NCBI GenBank assembly: GCA_902592265.1
Contig: CACJDV010000002.1
Location: forward strand, 24,622 to 88,621
DNA: 64,000 bases
Source of the DNA: an uncultured Pelagibacteraceae bacterium
GTDB taxonomy: Bacteria > Pseudomonadota > Alphaproteobacteria > Pelagibacterales > Pelagibacteraceae
Direction of reading: 5' to 3'
Made by a program: the position numbers and the translations under genes. Within the stretch, counting starts at the first letter, position 1. Each line of letters opens with the position of its first letter. This document shows positions 26,443 to 36,880 of the stretch, one piece after another. The notes beneath the pieces are model-generated. The model was not told the DNA's origin. It made no database searches and was given only the letters and a program-made list of their open reading frames with translations.

Positions 26443-26519
26443 TGGCGGGAGTGAAGGGACTCGAACCCTCGACCTATCGCGTGACAGGCGATCGCTCTAA
26501 CCAACTGAGCTACACCCCC
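26443..26519 (-). tRNA. tRNA-Asp (GTC)
   Basis: Reverse complement GGGGGTGTAGCTCAGTTGGTTAGAGCGATCGCCTGTCACGCGATAGGTCGAGGGTTCGAGTCCCTTCACTCCCGCCA folds as a cloverleaf; anticodon loop CTGTCAC; CCA encoded. Confidence 0.95.
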
Positions 26520-26533
26520 ACTTTTGATTCTTT

Positions 26534-26609
26534 TGGTGGGCAGTAAAGGACTCGAACCTTTGACCCCCTCGGTGTAAACGAGATGCTCTACCAACTGAGC
26601 TAACCGCCC
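26534..26609 (-). tRNA. tRNA-Val (TAC); its 5' half lies within the element's attachment core
   Basis: Reverse complement GGGCGGTTAGCTCAGTTGGTAGAGCATCTCGTTTACACCGAGGGGGTCAAAGGTTCGAGTCCTTTACTGCCCACCA; anticodon loop TTTACAC; acceptor GGGCGGT/ACTGCCC. Confidence 0.95.
26571..26609. repeat. Left attachment core (direct repeat copy 1)
   Basis: ggtgtaaacgagatgctctaccaactgagctaaccgccc, identical to 35399-35437. Confidence 0.93.
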
Positions 26610-26696
26610 AAAACCAAATAACGCAAGTGTTTACAACATTTTTATTAAGAAAGCAATAAATGGATTGTGGAGTTTTGAGTACATCTGTGAACATTT

Positions 26697-26760
26697 TGCG
26701 TAGACAATGCGTAGATGGTTTTGTCATTCAAAATTTGTTTTTGCGTAGACGATGCGTAGA
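26697..26760 (+). repeat. Two TGCGTAGA-N3-TGCGTAGA doublets (candidate integrase arm-type sites, left end)
   Basis: TGCGTAGA at 26697, 26708, 26742 and 26753, with 11-bp spacing within each pair. Confidence 0.75.
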
Positions 26761-26848: not shown

Positions 26849-28252
26849 ATGACTAAAATCGGACACAACGAACCGCCTAAAACTTTAGATGATTTTTTAA
26901 TTAAAGATCAAAATGAAAAAAGTACAGGGCGAATTAAATTAACAAACACAATCATTAAAAAATATTTAATAAAAAAATATGATGCAGCTAACGATAAGTA
27001 TTTGCCGCAAACTGCAAATGATAGTGAAAAAATTGGATTAAAAGTTAGAGCTAATATCGGTGGTTCTAAATCTTTTTATTATAAGCATGATCCAAAAGGA
27101 AAAACTATAAATGGTAAAAGACATAATTCAGTTTTTTATCATTTAGGAAATTTTCCTGAAATGTCAGTAGATAGTGCAAGATCATTAGTAGATGATTTAA
27201 AGCACGCAATTAAACTTGGTCAAGATCCAAGATCAGTGCTGGAAGAAAGAAGAAAAGCGAAAACATTGTCAGAGGTTATAGATCTATGGAAAGAAAAAGA
27301 TTTATATAAATCAACTAGGTTCGCTGCATCTACAATCAAAGATACTGAACAAAGATTAATGAATTGGATTGATTTAAAAGCATATAAACCAAGTACAAAT
27401 AAAATTATTGCTGCCAATTACAATGATCTAAAAATTGGATCTAAAAGGATGATTGAAATAACTAAATCTGATTTAATCGCATGGCACGCAGCTATAACAA
27501 AGGCTGGTTCATACCAGGCCAATAGATGTATGGATGATATGTCAATTATCTTTAATTGGGCTTTAGAAGAAAAGATAATCAAAGAAAATATTTGTAAGTT
27601 CAAGAAAAGCGAATTGAATGAGGAAAGCGATAGATTAGACGATGTTGATCCTTATTCACTTGTTGAATGGCGATTGATTAGAAAAGCTACAATGAAAATA
27701 ATTAAAAAAGAACCAAGAGTATTTTTAGCAGCAATGGCGATCCTATTGTATTTATATTGTGGTCGTAGATATAAATCAGAGATCTTAAACCTTAAATGGA
27801 ACCAGGTTGATTGGGATGCAAATATAATTAGATTACCAAAAACTAAAACGGGTAAATCTCAATTCTCAATTAACAAAATGTCTAGATGGGTATTGCGTCA
27901 GCTTTGGAAATATAACAAAGAAAATTTCAAAGGTAAGAAAGCTAAAACAATAAAAGCTGCGTATTTATTTCCAGCAACAAGAAAATCTAAAAAACCATAC
28001 ATCCAAGATATTAGAAAAACTTGGGTTAAAGTTTGTAAGTTAGCAAATGTAAGAATAGAGGAATTAGTTTTGTTAAGACATACTTGGGCCTGTCTTGCAT
28101 TAATAGCATCAAACGGAAATATTAAACTTGTTAAAGATGAGGGCGGTTGGAAAACTTATAAGATGGTTGAACGATATGCCAAGTATAACGAGAGATATTT
28201 ACAAAAAGGATCGGAAGTTATTGGAAATTACTTTGCCCGTGCAAAAGCATAA
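26849..28252 (+). CDS. int: Tyrosine recombinase / phage integrase
   Basis: C-terminal catalytic signature LVLLRHTWACLALIASNGNIKLVKDEGGWKTYKMVERYAKY (R-H-x-x-W...Y); upstream YLYCGRRYKSEILNLKWNQVDWDANIIRLPKTKTGK box; next to the tRNA att site. Confidence 0.95.
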   Translation: MTKIGHNEPPKTLDDFLIKDQNEKSTGRIKLTNTIIKKYLIKKYDAANDKYLPQTANDSEKIGLKVRANIGGSKSFYYKHDPKGKTINGKRHNSVFYHLGNFPEMSVDSARSLVDDLKHAIKLGQDPRSVLEERRKAKTLSEVIDLWKEKDLYKSTRFAASTIKDTEQRLMNWIDLKAYKPSTNKIIAANYNDLKIGSKRMIEITKSDLIAWHAAITKAGSYQANRCMDDMSIIFNWALEEKIIKENICKFKKSELNEESDRLDDVDPYSLVEWRLIRKATMKIIKKEPRVFLAAMAILLYLYCGRRYKSEILNLKWNQVDWDANIIRLPKTKTGKSQFSINKMSRWVLRQLWKYNKENFKGKKAKTIKAAYLFPATRKSKKPYIQDIRKTWVKVCKLANVRIEELVLLRHTWACLALIASNGNIKLVKDEGGWKTYKMVERYAKYNERYLQKGSEVIGNYFARAKA

Positions 28253-28321: not shown

Positions 28322-28840
28322 ATGAGCAGCATACTTGGTAAAGGTATCGGATCGCTAATTTTAAAAGATTATGTTGATTGGAAAAAGATACAAAACATTG
28401 CTAGACGAAACGGGATTTATACTGCTGCTGGAGTAGCAAAATTAATCATTGAACATTCCCCTATAAAATCTGTTGGCGAAATGAAATTACAATGGGCCAA
28501 AAGAATTTATTTAGCTCAACAAAAGAACAAAGATGCATCGCTATATTCAATCTTAAAAGATGATTTAGAAGTATTAGAATTCTTGCTCGGCCATGATCCG
28601 TTGTTAATTCATTGGGGTGCAGAGTGGGAAAAAGCATTAACCAAGAAAAAAGTAAAAATTACTCGGGCTAAATTAAAACCTTATTCTAAATGCATTGAAC
28701 ACCACAGAAAAAAATACAATGAGTTCTTGGCAAAAAATAAAAAATTTTTTACTGATTGGCTGCATGAGAATAAACGGGATGATGAGTTTGATACATTCAT
28801 AATTAAACTTGAAAGAGCTATTAAGAAAAAAAGATATTAA
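28322..28840 (+). CDS. Hypothetical protein of integrated element
   Basis: 172 aa intact ORF with strong RBS aggag upstream; no family recognised. Confidence 0.75.
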   Translation: MSSILGKGIGSLILKDYVDWKKIQNIARRNGIYTAAGVAKLIIEHSPIKSVGEMKLQWAKRIYLAQQKNKDASLYSILKDDLEVLEFLLGHDPLLIHWGAEWEKALTKKKVKITRAKLKPYSKCIEHHRKKYNEFLAKNKKFFTDWLHENKRDDEFDTFIIKLERAIKKKRY

Positions 28841-28848
28841 TTTTATTT

Positions 28849-28870
28849 TACCCGCAGCTGCTCACGGGTA
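28849..28870 (+). repeat. TACCCG-N10-CGGGTA palindrome between 28322 ORF and the Xis-like gene
   Basis: tacccgcagctgctcacgggta. Confidence 0.55.
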
Positions 28871-28915
28871 GGCAATCAAATAGATTTAGATCCAAAAAAG
28901 TATATTGCTGCTGCT

Positions 28916-29122
28916 ATGAGCAGTGAAACAAATAACAATTCAGTTTGGACAGATACCAAAGGGATCGCCAAACATTTTAATCTTAAACCAGCAACAATCC
29001 GTAAGCAAAGATCTAAACAAGTAAAAAATCAGCTGCCGTTTCATAAGATCGGTGGCCAGGTTAGATACAATGTAATCGAATGTGAAAAGGAAGTAGAGGC
29101 AAATAAATATGCGTACAAGTAA
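28916..29122 (+). CDS. Excisionase/AlpA-like helix-turn-helix DNA-binding protein
   Basis: 68 aa; WTDTKGIAKHFNLKPATIRKQRSKQVKNQLPFHKIGGQVRYNVIECEKEVEANK matches the excisionase/MerR-like HTH layout. Confidence 0.75.
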   Translation: MSSETNNNSVWTDTKGIAKHFNLKPATIRKQRSKQVKNQLPFHKIGGQVRYNVIECEKEVEANKYAYK

Positions 29123-29558
29123 AACTATCAAGGATCCAACATTCAATATCTATCGTAGAGGTGGCAGTGTTGAAAAAGCAATGGAAAGCAAAGGCGATGG
29201 AAAAGCTAAAGAAGAATTAATGCAATTAGCAAAGGATGAAAAAGATATTTTATTCGATGTTGAAAGTGAGATTACAGATATTCTTTTAGACAATTACAAC
29301 AAAGAGAAAAAACCAGGTCAAAGTTTTTTAGATTGGCTTGGTACCAAAGACAGAGAATATTTAATCAAGATACCTTTAGGCTTGGCCAGCGGTGGAAAAG
29401 TAATTTCTATTTCTGAATATTTAAAACAAAAAGAAAAACCTAGAATTAAAAAATTAAATCTTGATGCAGTTGCACCAGGAAAAGCATTATCAGAATTAAC
29501 AGATGCAGAAAGGGAAGTTGTTAGAAATCTATTGCGGATGACTTTTGGCCAAGATTAA
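29109..29558 (+). CDS. Hypothetical element protein
   Basis: 149 aa intact ORF; overlaps upstream gene end and abuts the next gene at a stop/start overlap (taatg). Confidence 0.75.
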   Translation: MRTSKTIKDPTFNIYRRGGSVEKAMESKGDGKAKEELMQLAKDEKDILFDVESEITDILLDNYNKEKKPGQSFLDWLGTKDREYLIKIPLGLASGGKVISISEYLKQKEKPRIKKLNLDAVAPGKALSELTDAEREVVRNLLRMTFGQD

Positions 29559-30229
29559 TGAAACCAAGTGAATACAAACAAATGATGGAATATTTAACTA
29601 GGCCCAAACAAAAACCAAGAGAATTTGAAAAAGCAGATAATTCGCCAGTGATGGTTAGCAACGGGGAAATTATGACAGAAAATCAATTTAAAAAATCTTT
29701 ACCATTAGAAGATCAGCCTGGATATGATCCTGATAAAGATCCAAATTTATTAAGAAGAATTAAATATTATCAGGGCGAAGAATTAGGGGCTGAATTTGAT
29801 AGAGCTATCGCAGAAGAAGATAAAGCATTAAAAAAACTTGGCAGAGATCCCGCAAACATCTTACAGAGAAATAGAAAAGTTCAGCCGTTAGTTCCTAAAA
29901 GAGCAACAACAAAACAGATGGTTGAGCTGAAAGGTAAAATAGATAAATATAAAAAAGTTCATTTTCCAAAAGAAGAAAAACCATTTACAAAAATTGCAAA
30001 GAACCTGGGTAAGAACAAAGAGTTTAAAAAAGAAAGTTTTAAATTAGATCCTTTACCTCAAATAGATTTTAGCACTATTGCACCACCAAAGACTAGAACA
30101 CCTGAAGAAATTGCAATGGAGCAAAGGTTCAATGAGCTTTTAAGAAAACAGAATGAGGAAAAAGTTAGAAACGCAACAACGGGATTAGCTGGTCTTGTTG
30201 GCGGCGATCCTTTTACAAAATTAAAATGA
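29558..30229 (+). CDS. Hypothetical element protein (charged, proline-containing; C-terminal GLAGLVGGDPF)
   Basis: 223 aa intact ORF; start overlaps previous stop, end overlaps next ATG. Confidence 0.75.
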   Translation: MKPSEYKQMMEYLTRPKQKPREFEKADNSPVMVSNGEIMTENQFKKSLPLEDQPGYDPDKDPNLLRRIKYYQGEELGAEFDRAIAEEDKALKKLGRDPANILQRNRKVQPLVPKRATTKQMVELKGKIDKYKKVHFPKEEKPFTKIAKNLGKNKEFKKESFKLDPLPQIDFSTIAPPKTRTPEEIAMEQRFNELLRKQNEEKVRNATTGLAGLVGGDPFTKLK

Positions 30230-30462
30230 ATAAATATGAATTGAAATATATGCTGGAACAGATGAGCAGCTCCGTTGATAGATTAACGGATGTAGCTGGA
30301 AAGCAGCAGCATCATATATCAGAGTTGTGGGAAGAAATAGGCCATAAGAATACAAAGATCCAAAAGCTAACAGAAAAAAATTATGAATTAGCGAGTGTCA
30401 TTCGAGGGCAAAGAGAAAAAGATTTAGCTGAAAAATATTGGGATGAAAGGATTGATAACTGA
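30226..30462 (+). CDS. Small predicted coiled-coil protein
   Basis: 78 aa; heptad-like pattern; ATGA overlap with upstream gene and TGATG with downstream gene. Confidence 0.65.
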   Translation: MNKYELKYMLEQMSSSVDRLTDVAGKQQHHISELWEEIGHKNTKIQKLTEKNYELASVIRGQREKDLAEKYWDERIDN

Positions 30463-30629
30463 TGACTAAAAAAGATTGGCTGCCCGATGTTAAAAAATTA
30501 ATGAAAATAGTTGAGCATCAAAAGCAAAGATTACATGACCAGGATTGGTTGATCCATAACCTGATTACAACAATAGACAAAATTCGTAGCGATGAGCTGC
30601 CGAATAAAAAGGAAAATAATTTGAATTAA
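30462..30629 (+). CDS. Small hypothetical protein (55 aa; below ORF-track cutoff)
   Basis: Read directly: MTKKDWLPDVKKLMKIVEHQKQRLHDQDWLIHNLITTIDKIRSDELPNKKENNLN*, start overlaps stop of the upstream ORF. Confidence 0.6.
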   Translation: MTKKDWLPDVKKLMKIVEHQKQRLHDQDWLIHNLITTIDKIRSDELPNKKENNLN

Positions 30630-30654
30630 ACCATTTAACAAAGGAGTTATTATT

Positions 30655-31305
30655 ATGTCGAATATTTTCAAACTTAATCAAGTCGTATCTAAAAATAAAT
30701 ACAACAAAGGAATAGCAGCAACACAAAGATTTGATGTTGTTGATCTTGGTAAGCCTGGGCCTGATGATTGGTTCAAGTTATATACATTCGATCAGCAAGG
30801 ATTAGATAATTTTCAGCCTTGTATGATTAGCAGAGTTAAAGATCCCGAGGGTAAGTTAAACCCCTATTTAATTGGTGGTTCAGAGGATTTTAAGGCTGCT
30901 TGTGCAGAGAAACTACCAAGAATTCAAGATGTTCATCTAGCATACGGAATAACAACGCATAAGAGATTATTTATTTGGCCCGTTGTTTATTTAGAAGATC
31001 TTAACGAGGGGATTGGTTGGCATATATCCGCTTGTGAAATTGCTAATGCAGCATTTACAAGATGGACACAGATAAGATCAGATAAACCAAATAGCAGATA
31101 TATTCATTTGGATTTAGACGATCAAGATCAGGTTCCAAAAGAAAAAGTTTTTGAAACACCACCTATTGATTATGAAACTGCCGTAAACAAAGCATTTAAA
31201 AATAGATACATAGGCAGCGAAGATCATCCTGTTTTTAAAAATGCTGGTTCAGTTTTAGAAACTAACTTTCAGAAAAAAACAATGAAAGGAATTATTAAAT
31301 CATGA
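30655..31305 (+). CDS. Hypothetical protein upstream of polymerase (candidate replication accessory)
   Basis: 216 aa, strong RBS aaggag; ATGA overlap with the next ORF. Confidence 0.75.
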   Translation: MSNIFKLNQVVSKNKYNKGIAATQRFDVVDLGKPGPDDWFKLYTFDQQGLDNFQPCMISRVKDPEGKLNPYLIGGSEDFKAACAEKLPRIQDVHLAYGITTHKRLFIWPVVYLEDLNEGIGWHISACEIANAAFTRWTQIRSDKPNSRYIHLDLDDQDQVPKEKVFETPPIDYETAVNKAFKNRYIGSEDHPVFKNAGSVLETNFQKKTMKGIIKS

Positions 31306-31547
31306 GTAGAGATCATATTAGAGTTATTGACGATTATAGACACTGCCATGAGAATGAATTCTTTTTTACATACGATCCAAGAAAAACTTCAGGAACAAAG
31401 CAGCTAATGGAATATTTAGAAAATAATTTTGATATTGAATTTCAAGATATTCCAGGTTGGCAAATTAAATCAGTGGTCGTTAATACTTATGGCAATTACG
31501 AAGATAGGGAAAAGTTTGGGATAAGAGTAATTAGAAATGATTGTTGA
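31302..31547 (+). CDS. Hypothetical protein
   Basis: 81 aa; overlaps both neighbours in a tight operon. Confidence 0.65.
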   Translation: MSRDHIRVIDDYRHCHENEFFFTYDPRKTSGTKQLMEYLENNFDIEFQDIPGWQIKSVVVNTYGNYEDREKFGIRVIRNDC

Positions 31548-33390
31548 TACTCTTAAAGAAAATTTTGATTATCTTTGTGTCGTAGATACTGAATTCAAAG
31601 GCCAGCAAGATGAGGGCCAACTCAATGATCCTGTTTGCGTTGTTATCAAAGAATTAAAATCAGGTCAGTATCATAAGTTCCACGGCCCGAAATTAAAGCT
31701 GCCCTATCCACCCAACAAAACATTATGGATTGCTCACAATGTAATTGCAGAGGCCCATACATTTTTAAGTTATGGATTAAAGCTGCCGAAATATTGGTGG
31801 GATACTTTCATTGAAGATAAGAAATTAAATTTTGGCAAAGTCGCTAGACACTCGTTGCTAGCGGCTTGTGGCAGATACGGAATACAAACTATTTCAGAGG
31901 ATCTAAAAAAGTATTTCATTAATAAAATAATTTTACCTAATGAAACTTATACCCAGGATCAAATGTCCAAGATCCTTGAATATTGTACCAGCGATGTTGA
32001 TGCTGGAGCTGCACTATTCCTGGAGCAATGCAAAGAAATTGAAAAAGTAAAAAAATTTGATGGCCCTGAAATGATAATTAGTCAGGCCCTATTCAGTGGA
32101 GCTGCGGTTGCTTGCACGGCCAAGGTTGAGTTCAACGGGAACCATGTAAACAATGAGCTGCTAAAAAAGATTGATGATGCTTTTCCTTATGTGAAAAGAA
32201 AAATAATTGATGAATTAAATGCTGAATTAGATGTTTACGAAAACGATGTTTTAAAACAAGATAAGTTTGATACCTGGATCGAGCATATTGGTTTAGCTGA
32301 TGTATGGCCTCTAACAATTACAGGACAATATAAAACAGATGAAAAAACTTTAGAAACTTACAAAGATGCTCATCCTGATGTTAGAAAATTTAAACTAGCC
32401 CAGGAGTTTATAGGTTCTAGAAAATTAAAAGGTTTTATTGTTGGGCCTGATAAGAAAGCAAGATGCAGTTATAGGATGTATGGATTAAAAACGGGAAGAA
32501 CAAATCCATCAACAGCAAAGCATCCTTTCAATGCTCCAAAGGCAATGAGAAATTTAATCAAAGCTCCTGATAAAAATAAAATCAGTGTTAATTTTGATTA
32601 CAGATCGCAAGAGGTTGCAATAGCAGCTTATCTTTCCCAAGATCCAAATATGATGGCAGCGGTTCAAAAGACAGATCCGTATATTTACATTGCACAAATA
32701 AACAAAGCAGCTCCCGATGGTGCAACAAAGAAAACGCATAAGGTAATTAGAAATCTTTATAAGACCACAACACTTGCAGCTCTATATGGTCAGGGTGCCG
32801 TGAATATGTCTAAACGAATGAATTTAATAATTGATTATGGCCAAGAGTTATTTGTAAAAATTAAAAATACTTTTCCAACTTATTTTGCCTGGGCCAAGAC
32901 TATGTTTGATAAAGCAATAGTTAATGGTTATGCCGAAACAAAATATGGATGGCGATATTATTTTAAACCTGGCGAATTATATAATCCAAGAACCTTTTAT
33001 AATTTTCCTATTCAGGCCCATGGTTCAGAGATGCTGCGTAGAGCTTTAATTGATTTAACTTTTGCTGGTATTGAAGTTAATGCACTAATTCACGATGGAA
33101 TTGTAATTACACTAAATAAGAAAAATTTTAGAAAAGAATTTATTCAGGCTAAAGAAATATTAATCAATGCATCAAAAGCAATCCTGAATGAAGATAGCAG
33201 CACTGATTATTATTGCGATGTAGATTTCCAAATTATTAGATCAGGAATGATACAAGAGCCTGCGGATCAAAATAAATTTAATAGGATCATTGAATTAACG
33301 AATGAGTTTAACCTAGGGAATAATTCCAGGGGTACCCAAGGAACAAAGTCAGCCCCGTGGATAGATATTAATATTAATAAATATAATTAG
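31537..33390 (+). CDS. Phage-type family A DNA polymerase with N-terminal 3'-5' exonuclease-like domain
   Basis: Exo motifs CVVDTEFKG and YCTSDVDA; polymerase motif A VNFDYRSQEVAIAAYLSQD, motif B KVIRNLYKTTTLAALYGQG, motif C ALIHDGIVIT. Confidence 0.92.
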   Translation: MIVDTLKENFDYLCVVDTEFKGQQDEGQLNDPVCVVIKELKSGQYHKFHGPKLKLPYPPNKTLWIAHNVIAEAHTFLSYGLKLPKYWWDTFIEDKKLNFGKVARHSLLAACGRYGIQTISEDLKKYFINKIILPNETYTQDQMSKILEYCTSDVDAGAALFLEQCKEIEKVKKFDGPEMIISQALFSGAAVACTAKVEFNGNHVNNELLKKIDDAFPYVKRKIIDELNAELDVYENDVLKQDKFDTWIEHIGLADVWPLTITGQYKTDEKTLETYKDAHPDVRKFKLAQEFIGSRKLKGFIVGPDKKARCSYRMYGLKTGRTNPSTAKHPFNAPKAMRNLIKAPDKNKISVNFDYRSQEVAIAAYLSQDPNMMAAVQKTDPYIYIAQINKAAPDGATKKTHKVIRNLYKTTTLAALYGQGAVNMSKRMNLIIDYGQELFVKIKNTFPTYFAWAKTMFDKAIVNGYAETKYGWRYYFKPGELYNPRTFYNFPIQAHGSEMLRRALIDLTFAGIEVNALIHDGIVITLNKKNFRKEFIQAKEILINASKAILNEDSSTDYYCDVDFQIIRSGMIQEPADQNKFNRIIELTNEFNLGNNSRGTQGTKSAPWIDININKYN

Positions 33391-33396
33391 GTATGT

Positions 33397-33726
33397 ATGC
33401 AGATAGACAAAACCAAAGTGAAAGAATTATTTATAGCTGGCAGTTTAAATCCCGCTATTGCAATGTTGTTCAGGGCCAAAGCTGGTATGCCTGGTCTATT
33501 AATTTATTTGTATGTGAAATGGCGATTAGGATTTCCGCATTACATGACAAAGCAAAAAAGAACCTGGATAAAATTAGACAATGTATCAATGGAAAAATAC
33601 GGGTTCGGTATGGATCCAAAAACCAAGAACAAAGCACTGCGAAAATTGGACAGAGAAAAATTAATTCAACTGCACTTGCTAGAAAATTCAGGCAAGGCTC
33701 CACAAGTGAGGTTATTAACTAAATGA
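33397..33726 (+). CDS. Small protein, possible winged-helix regulator, directly upstream of terS
   Basis: 109 aa; WIKLDNVSMEKYGFGMDPKTKNKALRKLDREKLIQLHLLENSGKAPQVRLL looks wHTH-like; ATGA overlap with the next gene. Confidence 0.6.
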   Translation: MQIDKTKVKELFIAGSLNPAIAMLFRAKAGMPGLLIYLYVKWRLGFPHYMTKQKRTWIKLDNVSMEKYGFGMDPKTKNKALRKLDREKLIQLHLLENSGKAPQVRLLTK

Positions 33727-34286
33727 CAAAAGAAATAGATAAGCAGCTAGATGACAAAGAAAAAAAGCTGCGTAAGAAAATTGAAAAGCAAGTAGAGAAT
33801 AAAAAATACCAAGATAAGATAACACCTATTCAGCAAAAGTTTATTGAGAATTACACTAGCAAATATGGTCAATGGTCAGCGACGCAATGTGCGATAGCAG
33901 CTGGCTATTCGCCGTCATCGGCCCATACAAGAGCTGCTGAATTATTAGATTGGCGAAAGCATCCTGATATTGCAATCGAGATCCAAGATCGGTTGGCTGC
34001 GTTGCGTGAGGCTTGGGATGTGAACAGAGATAAACATTTAGCAATGCTGGTTAAGATCCGTGATGCGTCAATGGAAAAAGGTATGTATGGAGTGGCTAAC
34101 AAAGCAGAGGAGCTGCGGGGCAAAGTAGCTGGATTATATGTTGAAAGAAATCTTACACTTACAAAAGAATTATCAAACGAGGACTTGCACGATAAGATGA
34201 AAGAAATATTTCCAACGAAAGAGGCTTTTCTAGCGGGCCAACGGGATATTATGAAAGATCTATTTCCTGATGATGACGAGGAGTAA
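33723..34286 (+). CDS. terS: Phage terminase small subunit-like protein
   Basis: 187 aa; TPIQQKFIENYTSKYGQWSATQCAIAAGYSPSSAHTRAAELLDWRKHPDIAIEIQ matches the Terminase_2/XtmA N-terminal HTH pattern. Confidence 0.88.
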   Translation: MTKEIDKQLDDKEKKLRKKIEKQVENKKYQDKITPIQQKFIENYTSKYGQWSATQCAIAAGYSPSSAHTRAAELLDWRKHPDIAIEIQDRLAALREAWDVNRDKHLAMLVKIRDASMEKGMYGVANKAEELRGKVAGLYVERNLTLTKELSNEDLHDKMKEIFPTKEAFLAGQRDIMKDLFPDDDEE

Positions 34287-35292: not shown

Positions 35293-35312
35293 TGCGTAGA
35301 TAATGCGTAGAT
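35293..35312 (+). repeat. TGCGTAGA-N3-TGCGTAGA doublet (candidate integrase arm-type site, right end)
   Basis: TGCGTAGA at 35293 and 35304; same orientation and 11-bp spacing as the left-end pairs. Confidence 0.75.
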
Positions 35313-35398: not shown

Positions 35399-35437
35399 GG
35401 TGTAAACGAGATGCTCTACCAACTGAGCTAACCGCCC
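35399..35437. repeat. Right attachment core (direct repeat copy 2; orphan 5' half of tRNA-Val)
   Basis: ggtgtaaacgagatgctctaccaactgagctaaccgccc, identical to 26571-26609. Confidence 0.93.
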
Positions 35438-35557
35438 TTAACCAAAATTAGTGATTTTTATATCTTTTATGATAATTACGCAAGATATTTTAAATCATTT
35501 AATCTAGCAAAAATTAATAATTATTTTATTATAATCAAATATACAAACTAGTAGAAT

Positions 35558-36880
35558 TTAATTATCCCTCATAGCTTCATATATTTTTTCTGAAACTTTT
35601 TTATAACCAAAAATATTAAAATGTCCTGGTAAATTAAAAGGAAACATTTTTTTAGGATCATTTTCTAATGAAAGTAAACTTTGTTCTATATCAATTAAGT
35701 TAATATCTAATTTTCTTACTATATCTTTAACATCTTTAAAATAATTTTTTTTATAATCTTCTTTATTATTTTTATAACCTGTTAAATAAATAAAATAAAA
35801 ATTAGACTCATTTTTTTTCGTCAAAACTTTAGCCATATTTAATATTTCTTCTAATTTATCTTTTGAGATATCATTTTCATATTTATTGACATCTTTAAAT
35901 ATACTTTTGATATTAACTCTTACTTTGTATAATTTTAAGAATCGTAAAATTTCATTATAATCTTTTTTAATTTCCTCTTTATTTTTTTTGTGGATAAAAT
36001 TATTTAACAACTCATCAATATTATTTTGTTGATTCATTAAATTTTGAGAATAGTCGGTATCAAAAAAATATTTTTTTAAATTATCAGATTTGAGTTCATT
36101 AATTAATTCTTCAAGGTCGTTGTCATAAAATATCCATAAAACGTTTTTCACTTTTGGTGATATATATTCTCTTAAAGTAGCGTATTCAACTAAAGGGCCA
36201 TTTCCAGAATAGCCAAGATTTAGGACGCTTTTGTTACTAAGCTTTCTTAAGTTAGATCCTATATCATTGGGCCTATTCACACAGGCGCCATGAGTAAAAG
36301 AATCTCCTATCAACATGAATTCAATTTCATCTTCATCCCATTCAGAGTCTGGATTATTGAATCCATAACGATCACTTATGTAAGATGAAAAATAACCATT
36401 TTCATTGCAGTGGATTGTTTTTGAGTTTGAAATACCTCCAAGAGGAAAAATATTAGATGATTCAAATAAAAAGTTTTCTGGAGATATGCTTATAACAATT
36501 TTTTCATCAATTATTTTACTATCATTGTATATTTCTTTTAAAGATCTGCGGTCATAATTTTTAGAATTATTTTTCTCAAATATCTTAATTTTTTTTGATA
36601 AATTTTTTTTATCGTTCTTATTAGATACTTTCACTAGATAGTAAAACTCTGTGAGATATAAAGAAAAAACAACAGAAAAAAAAATAATAATTGTATATAA
36701 ACCAATCGATCTAAAATAAAAAATTAATAAGGAGAGTATAAAAAAGAAAATTGATACTATATAGTAAATAAGATAATAATCTCTTCTTTCACCATCCCAT
36801 ATAATTTCAGATCTATAAAAAGTATATATGAATAAAACTATAGAAATTATGAAATACAAGATTTGAATTTTAAATTTCAT
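35558..36880 (-). CDS. Membrane-anchored SGNH-hydrolase-like protein
   Basis: N-terminal TM segments, EFMLIGDSFTHGACV (GDS block), LPGHFNIFGYKKVSEKI (C-terminal H block). Confidence 0.7.
   Translation of the reverse strand: MKFKIQILYFIISIVLFIYTFYRSEIIWDGERRDYYLIYYIVSIFFFILSLLIFYFRSIGLYTIIIFFSVVFSLYLTEFYYLVKVSNKNDKKNLSKKIKIFEKNNSKNYDRRSLKEIYNDSKIIDEKIVISISPENFLFESSNIFPLGGISNSKTIHCNENGYFSSYISDRYGFNNPDSEWDEDEIEFMLIGDSFTHGACVNRPNDIGSNLRKLSNKSVLNLGYSGNGPLVEYATLREYISPKVKNVLWIFYDNDLEELINELKSDNLKKYFFDTDYSQNLMNQQNNIDELLNNFIHKKNKEEIKKDYNEILRFLKLYKVRVNIKSIFKDVNKYENDISKDKLEEILNMAKVLTKKNESNFYFIYLTGYKNNKEDYKKNYFKDVKDIVRKLDINLIDIEQSLLSLENDPKKMFPFNLPGHFNIFGYKKVSEKIYEAMRDN

Follow-up and report, generated by a model that had tools for sequence, protein, structure and literature searches.

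Integration at a tRNA gene, in its textbook form, leaves the host promoter alone. The 64,000-nucleotide stretch of DNA analysed here (the window) belongs to contig C2 of a SAR11-like genome (G000; assembly of 1.02 Mb in 31 contigs). In this window, the 5' end of an intact tRNA-Val(TAC) gene is turned towards an integrase gene and a copy of the 5' half of the same tRNA is found 8.8 kb away. This arrangement raises the question whether an element was inserted into the 5' half of the tRNA gene and, if so, which promoter now serves the tRNA.

Boundaries, gene content and empty site of the element

An earlier note on this DNA had read tRNA-Val as a minus-strand gene with its 5' end at 26609, facing the element, and the ARAGORN and Rfam calls agreed. 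The 39-bp duplication that it described, from the anticodon-loop region to the tRNA 5' end, was confirmed as an exact repeat of tRNA-Val nt 1-39, which comprises nt 1 through the entire anticodon loop. The two copies are spaced by 8828 bp. Since a genome search of G000 found just one intact copy of tRNA-Val(TAC) and a single half copy, the repeat far exceeds chance expectation. Between its copies lies an 8.8-kb element that encodes a tyrosine integrase, a family A DNA polymerase and a terminase small subunit. In the rebuilt tRNA-Val, the 3' part is host sequence and the 5' half lies at the junction. The features of the locus are as follows:

26443-26519, minus strand: tRNA-Asp, adjoining tRNA-Val (ARAGORN, Rfam)
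26534-26609, minus strand: tRNA-Val(TAC), intact, rebuilt at the integrase-side junction (ARAGORN, Rfam, sequence)
26571-26609, minus strand: att copy on the integrase side, tRNA-Val nt 1-39 (exact 39-bp repeat)
26849-28252, plus strand: tyrosine integrase, 467 aa (PF00589 and PF13356, phrog_1, alignment)
28322-31547, plus strand: proteins between integrase and polymerase, without PHROGs or Pfam match for those searched (ORFs)
31537-33390, plus strand: family A DNA polymerase, 617 aa (PF00476, phrog_17)
33723-34286, plus strand: terminase small subunit, 187 aa (PF03592, phrog_51)
35399-35437, minus strand: att copy on the far side, orphan tRNA-Val 5' half (nt 1-39), joined to the original upstream flank (repeat and empty-site comparison)

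All sizeable genes of the element are on the plus strand and point away from tRNA-Val. The terminase small subunit shares 35% identity with its counterpart in Pelagibacter phage HTVC027P. The ten element proteins searched showed no similarity in PHROGs or Pfam to large terminase, capsid or tail genes. In having an integrase and a terminase small subunit, with no structural gene recognized in this set, the element resembles a phage satellite. No free form was found in viral contigs, whether the query was the integrase, either end, an arm pair or one of the two left ends. Beside the orphan half, a 440-aa gene (35558-36880) with a weak GDSL-lipase match is absent at that place in mapped relatives and may be cargo of an older insertion.

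The orphan half had further been proposed to retain the original upstream flank, with the original promoter side now about 8.8 kb away. Both proposals were borne out by the repeat spacing and by genome G014, in which an intact tRNA-Val, tRNA-Asp and the nuo genes occur without the element. The flank before this intact tRNA-Val was identical to the outer flank of the window's orphan half (ttaaccaaaatt...) at 70/73 positions, versus 27/73 for the element-side flank. The G014 contig gave one continuous BLAST match over the predicted junction (91.8% over 12.9 kb) and stops 73 bp upstream of tRNA-Val, so the empty-site test is short but unambiguous. The contrary arrangement, with the element-side flank before an intact tRNA, was sought in this comparison and the opposite was found.

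These results support the conclusion that tRNA-Val was cut off from its original promoter. No second tRNA-Val with a UAC anticodon was found in the window genome, whose assembly is incomplete (85.7%), so that a second tRNA-Val could be missing from it. A tRNA-Val with this anticodon is required for GUA and GUG codons. As the only UAC copy found and one that is needed for these codons, tRNA-Val must be expressed, and given this need and the anatomy of the locus, its transcription would now have to come from element sequence.

Recurrence at tRNA-Val and two families of ends

Recurrence was examined in 399 genomes of the genus, plus AH-324-B10; many of these genomes were assembled only in part, from single cells or metagenomes. 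Two copies of the 39-bp core were present in the window genome and in eleven others among the 399, and likewise in AH-324-B10. Three of the eleven (G038, G280 and G402) were tandem duplications of the whole tRNA pair; their tandem tRNA-Val and tRNA-Asp genes (L048, L092 and L093, respectively) have a 248-bp period and an own upstream region for each copy. In the other eight and in AH-324-B10, an insert is flanked by an orphan 5' half on one side and by the intact tRNA on the other. Ten loci including the window thus have the tRNA-Val 5' half duplicated around an insert, with the orphan keeping the older promoter. Together with the empty-site comparison, the equal displacement at the nine further loci supports the earlier note's central claim of an integration into the tRNA-Val 5' half.

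At all ten loci, regardless of the insert, the repeats end at tRNA nt 1 and just past the anticodon loop (nt 38-41). These constant end points across differing inserts suggest that recombination was site-specific and that strands were exchanged in the anticodon loop. Each distinct orphan flank matched the closest upstream region of an intact tRNA in a relative at 59-70 of 70 positions (68/70 for G340 and the empty site of G410; 61/70 for AH-324-B10 and the empty sites of G032 and G035). A common insert-free order is lon - tRNA-Val - tRNA-Asp - nuoA, in which the upstream region is of type B (TTTACA..TGATGTAAT) and measures 47-49 bp. Counted over distinct loci, intact tRNA-Val genes are preceded by upstream regions of type A (33), B (23) and E (7); among orphans, type B occurs in 6 distinct cases, type A in 2 and type E never. 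At L046 (G053 C7, 4199-4270), the opposite strand carries a second, diverged tRNA-Val-like copy, which is about 1.6 kb away from the intact gene.

The element ends fall into two families, each with its own promoter-like sequence and arm repeats of 11-bp period. Family E consists of the window element and the inserts of G340 (AG-325-E08) and AH-324-B10, and loci with the same ends were found in named Pelagibacteraceae records. Its members have about 160 bp in common on the tRNA side and about 125 bp on the other side, with nothing shared further in; arm pairs TCTACGCAxxxTCTACGCA (11-bp period) lie within these shared ends. The interiors are wholly different: integrase, DNA polymerase and terminase small subunit in the window, a type I restriction-modification system in G340 (L072, C17, 3692-9550) and a type III system in AH-324-B10 (L098, CACONH010000002.1, 2519-6354). 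Neither of the latter two inserts contains an integrase gene; the genus search with the window integrase listed no relative for G340. Next to the orphan core of L072, about 36 bp of the element right end (CACCTAGCTCAAATAAATTAAATCTTCATTTACAC) are directly duplicated, a feature of G340 only.

Family A comprises seven inserts of 1.7-4.7 kb (L071, L073, L074, L088, L089, L090 and L091) with differing cargo and without an integrase. Their cargo includes trypsin-like proteases in two inserts and many unknown proteins. On the tRNA side, they carry arm pairs GCACACTxxxxGCACA (11-bp period), a TTTTTAGCCATTTTT block and a near-consensus promoter-like pair CTTGAC..TATAAA; on the other side, arm pairs and GAATCTCGTTAC. 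In each of the seven, the older promoter is on the orphan and a different conserved promoter is on the intact gene. About 110 bp past the orphan core, the GAATCTCGTTAC of their right ends resembles the tRNA core GCATCTCGTTTAC minus one base, and the right end of the window element carries the similar TTCATTTACAC.

Because type A upstream regions correspond to the left end of family A inserts, the type A region that was displaced in the window may itself be element-derived. No decayed orphan halves were found behind lon in type A genomes without a second copy, so that in these single-copy genomes we can only infer an element origin. Judging by the shared ends, the integrase-less inserts may have been mobilized in trans; loss of the integrase after insertion is an equally possible history.

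Promoter-like regions and the origin of the arrangement

Inspection of the sequences that adjoin the two core copies yielded the following features:

26630-26656, minus strand: candidate element-supplied promoter, TTGCTT (26651-26656), 15 bp, TGTAAA (26630-26635) (conservation)
26697-26715, minus strand: arm-type repeat pair TCTACGCATTGTCTACGCA, 11-bp period
26742-26760, minus strand: arm-type repeat pair TCTACGCATCGTCTACGCA
35293-35311, minus strand: arm-type repeat pair TCTACGCATTATCTACGCA, far end
35457-35483, minus strand: displaced host promoter-like region, TTGCGT (35478-35483), 15 bp, TATAAA (35457-35462) (match to relatives)

Arm-type sites thus occur on both sides of the core, as three TCTACGCA pairs, two on the left and one on the right. 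The candidate promoter lies in the 240-bp interval between integrase and tRNA-Val, with 20 bp between the end of TGTAAA and the tRNA; the corresponding distance from the displaced TATAAA to the tRNA start is 19 bp. Among the three family E elements, the 30 bp nearest the tRNA are 93-100% identical, versus about 45-59% in the interior, and TTGCTT-15-TGTAAA is a conserved pair, of which AH-324-B10 has the variant TTGCAT. Similar promoter-like sequences precede intact tRNA-Val in G422, G194 and G030 (four further loci counted). The displaced region matches a conserved TTGAC[CG]..TATAAA before intact tRNA-Val in about 30 relatives. Simple consensus promoter scans gave nothing above shuffles and picked out neither the element nor the host promoter; the element sequence is a weak match to the sigma-70 consensus. 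How well TTGCTT-15-TGTAAA is conserved, where it lies, which way the element genes point and the fact that the tRNA is needed all argue that it is the probable working promoter of the rebuilt tRNA-Val.

An acgcaag motif on both flanks had been suggested as a possible part of equivalent promoters. The motif is indeed present on both sides (26621-26627 and 35478-35484), but at 12 and 41 bp, respectively, from the tRNA 5' end, which rules it out as a shared promoter part. On the tRNA strand, the right-side copy forms the TTGCGT at the -35-like place where relatives have TTGACG or TTGACC, whereas the left-side copy lies downstream of the -10-like TGTAAA; the two are therefore not equivalent.

Separated from its old promoter, tRNA-Val could also be transcribed by readthrough or antisense transcription from the element interior, with no dedicated promoter in attP. 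The cargo genes of the G340 and AH-324-B10 inserts, which point towards the tRNA, are in line with such a source. In the window, however, the sizeable element genes point away from the tRNA, the 30 bp before it are the best conserved part of a left end whose interiors are unrelated, and the second family of ends has its near-consensus TTGAC-TATAAA pair at about the same distance. Readthrough is therefore an unlikely source of tRNA-Val. Still less probable is an origin of the inserts by homologous recombination between tRNA copies instead of site-specific insertion. SAR11 recombines often, upstream regions are of several kinds and tandem tRNA pairs exist in G038, G280 and G402, but the repeats stop at the same two fixed points at ten loci with differing inserts, arm-type repeats are present at both ends, and an integrase gene adjoins the rebuilt tRNA in three elements. 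That the intact tRNA and its present upstream region are the original, with the orphan brought by the element or derived from a partial duplication, is hardly credible although the intact gene keeps tRNA-Asp and the nuo genes as neighbours: already refuted by the empty sites, in every one of which it would need a misassembly, it conflicts with the orphan-side flank before intact tRNA-Val in G014 and with AH-324-B10 and the seven integrase-less family A inserts, in which the orphan adjoins lon and has the type B promoter, like intact tRNA-Val in 20-odd empty genomes.

With high confidence, we conclude that an 8.8-kb satellite-like element was inserted site-specifically into the 5' half of tRNA-Val(TAC), displaced its original promoter and supplied its own. 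In such an insertion, strand exchange would most likely have taken place in the anticodon loop, a crossover point that we infer. The attP would consist of tRNA nt 1-39, an immediately adjoining upstream promoter and, more distally, arm-type integrase sites, and a circular or concatemeric form is predicted to have the junction GAGCTAGGTGG-core-AAAACCAAATAACGCAAG. The element's own integrase presumably performed the insertion, which would join the host 3' half to the element-supplied 5' half and promoter and leave the original promoter with the orphan, 8.8 kb away. The element would thereby take control of the expression of an essential tRNA; its promoter would become part of the attachment site and would therefore be selected to work in the host.

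A wider scheme has, in our judgement, about even chances of being correct. In this scheme, the tRNA-Val 5' half would be a standing docking site, into which integrases of satellite-like elements insert integrase-less cargo, including restriction-modification systems, in trans. With a tRNA promoter built into the end of each module, the promoter of an essential single-copy tRNA would have been swapped many times, and many present genomes would run on an element-derived promoter. This would be a possible route for gain and loss of defence genes in the most abundant marine bacteria.

Related integrases and known systems

The window integrase ORF is intact, with att outside it, and the gene adjoins the att repeat that is part of the tRNA gene. 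In an alignment, residues R307, K333, R410, W434 and Y443 were present, with V407 at the usual H; in related integrases, this position of the HxxR motif is H, K or Y. In three related integrases, including that of the window, the tRNA 5' end faces the integrase start; the other two are at other tRNAs. One of them (G235 C17; 37-38% identical) faces the 5' end of tRNA-Pro(TGG), and a 5'-half tRNA-Pro orphan lies at the other end of the same contig. The other, in G439 (a complete genome from another genus of the family), is at tRNA-Arg(ACG); there, the 5'-half orphan measures 42 bp and lies about 10 kb away (across contig ends), and both ends carry CGACCTAC arm pairs. Another related integrase (G039; 29%) has the ordinary arrangement, in which the 3' part of tRNA-Thr (nt 31-76) is duplicated as a 46-bp repeat. 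An integrase clade specific for 5' halves was considered and rejected: pairwise identities of 23-37% do not separate the 5'-half users from G039, and no clade rule is therefore claimed. The 12-kb element at tRNA-Pro also contains an apparent sigma-70-like factor of 253 aa (L043, G235 C17, 2118-2879; translation read) and apparent glycosyltransferase and radical SAM genes.

PICI/SaPI-like satellites are considered here by their generally known features, and a CIME (cis-mobilizable element) is defined by two att ends and no integrase. The inserts of G340 and AH-324-B10 resemble the CIMEs of ICE families in that both att ends are retained and no integrase is present; they differ from CIMEs in that their ends are those of a satellite-like element and that each carries a single restriction-modification system as cargo. 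The window element resembles PICI/SaPI-like satellites and, as far as the accessible part of the source describes them, the PICMI of marine Vibrionaceae (PMC10803314) in being small, with an integrase and terS and no structural genes found. It differs from PICI-like satellites in its family A DNA polymerase, in showing no regulator and in its use of a tRNA 5' half; its gene content makes it a putative satellite.

As the earlier note had stated, most tRNA-targeting integrases leave the original promoter in place (PMC8371274), and a review calls the bacterial case of 5'-half promoter displacement rare. The closest parallel is provided by pTN3/TKV4-type elements of Thermococcus, whose IntpTN3 uses a 41-bp att in the 5' half of tRNA(Leu); there, too, the intact tRNA is rebuilt yet parted from its original promoter (PMC5495485, PMC8371274). 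The archaeal pTN3 has its att within the integrase gene; integration splits this gene, and the tRNA is then transcribed from the promoter of the integrase. In contrast, the window integrase is intact, and a promoter-like region between att and integrase points the opposite way. For the window element, as for mycobacteriophages with tRNA-dependent lysogeny, integration costs the host an essential tRNA, a loss that has to be made good; the phages compensate with a whole spare tRNA with its own promoter (PMC10865867), whereas in the window tRNA-Val itself is rebuilt and receives a new promoter. A prophage in tRNA-Val of SAR11 SAG-MED28 shares host group and target but belongs to another subclade, and the tRNA half used is not stated in the accessible part of its description (PMC7542561).

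The principle is thus already known, but its repeated use at one bacterial tRNA, by promoter-bearing ends with exchangeable cargo, was not found described in the searchable literature. With empty and filled sites, two promoter families and cargo modules with shared ends, the SAR11 series makes a rarely noted mode of integration directly testable. In Methylopumilus, the repeat of additive island fGI-2, ACCAGCTGAGCTAATCCCCC, was described as the last 20 bp of tRNA-Lys (PMC10872708). Its reverse complement reads like a tRNA 5' end, and fGI-2 islands may also use a 5' half.
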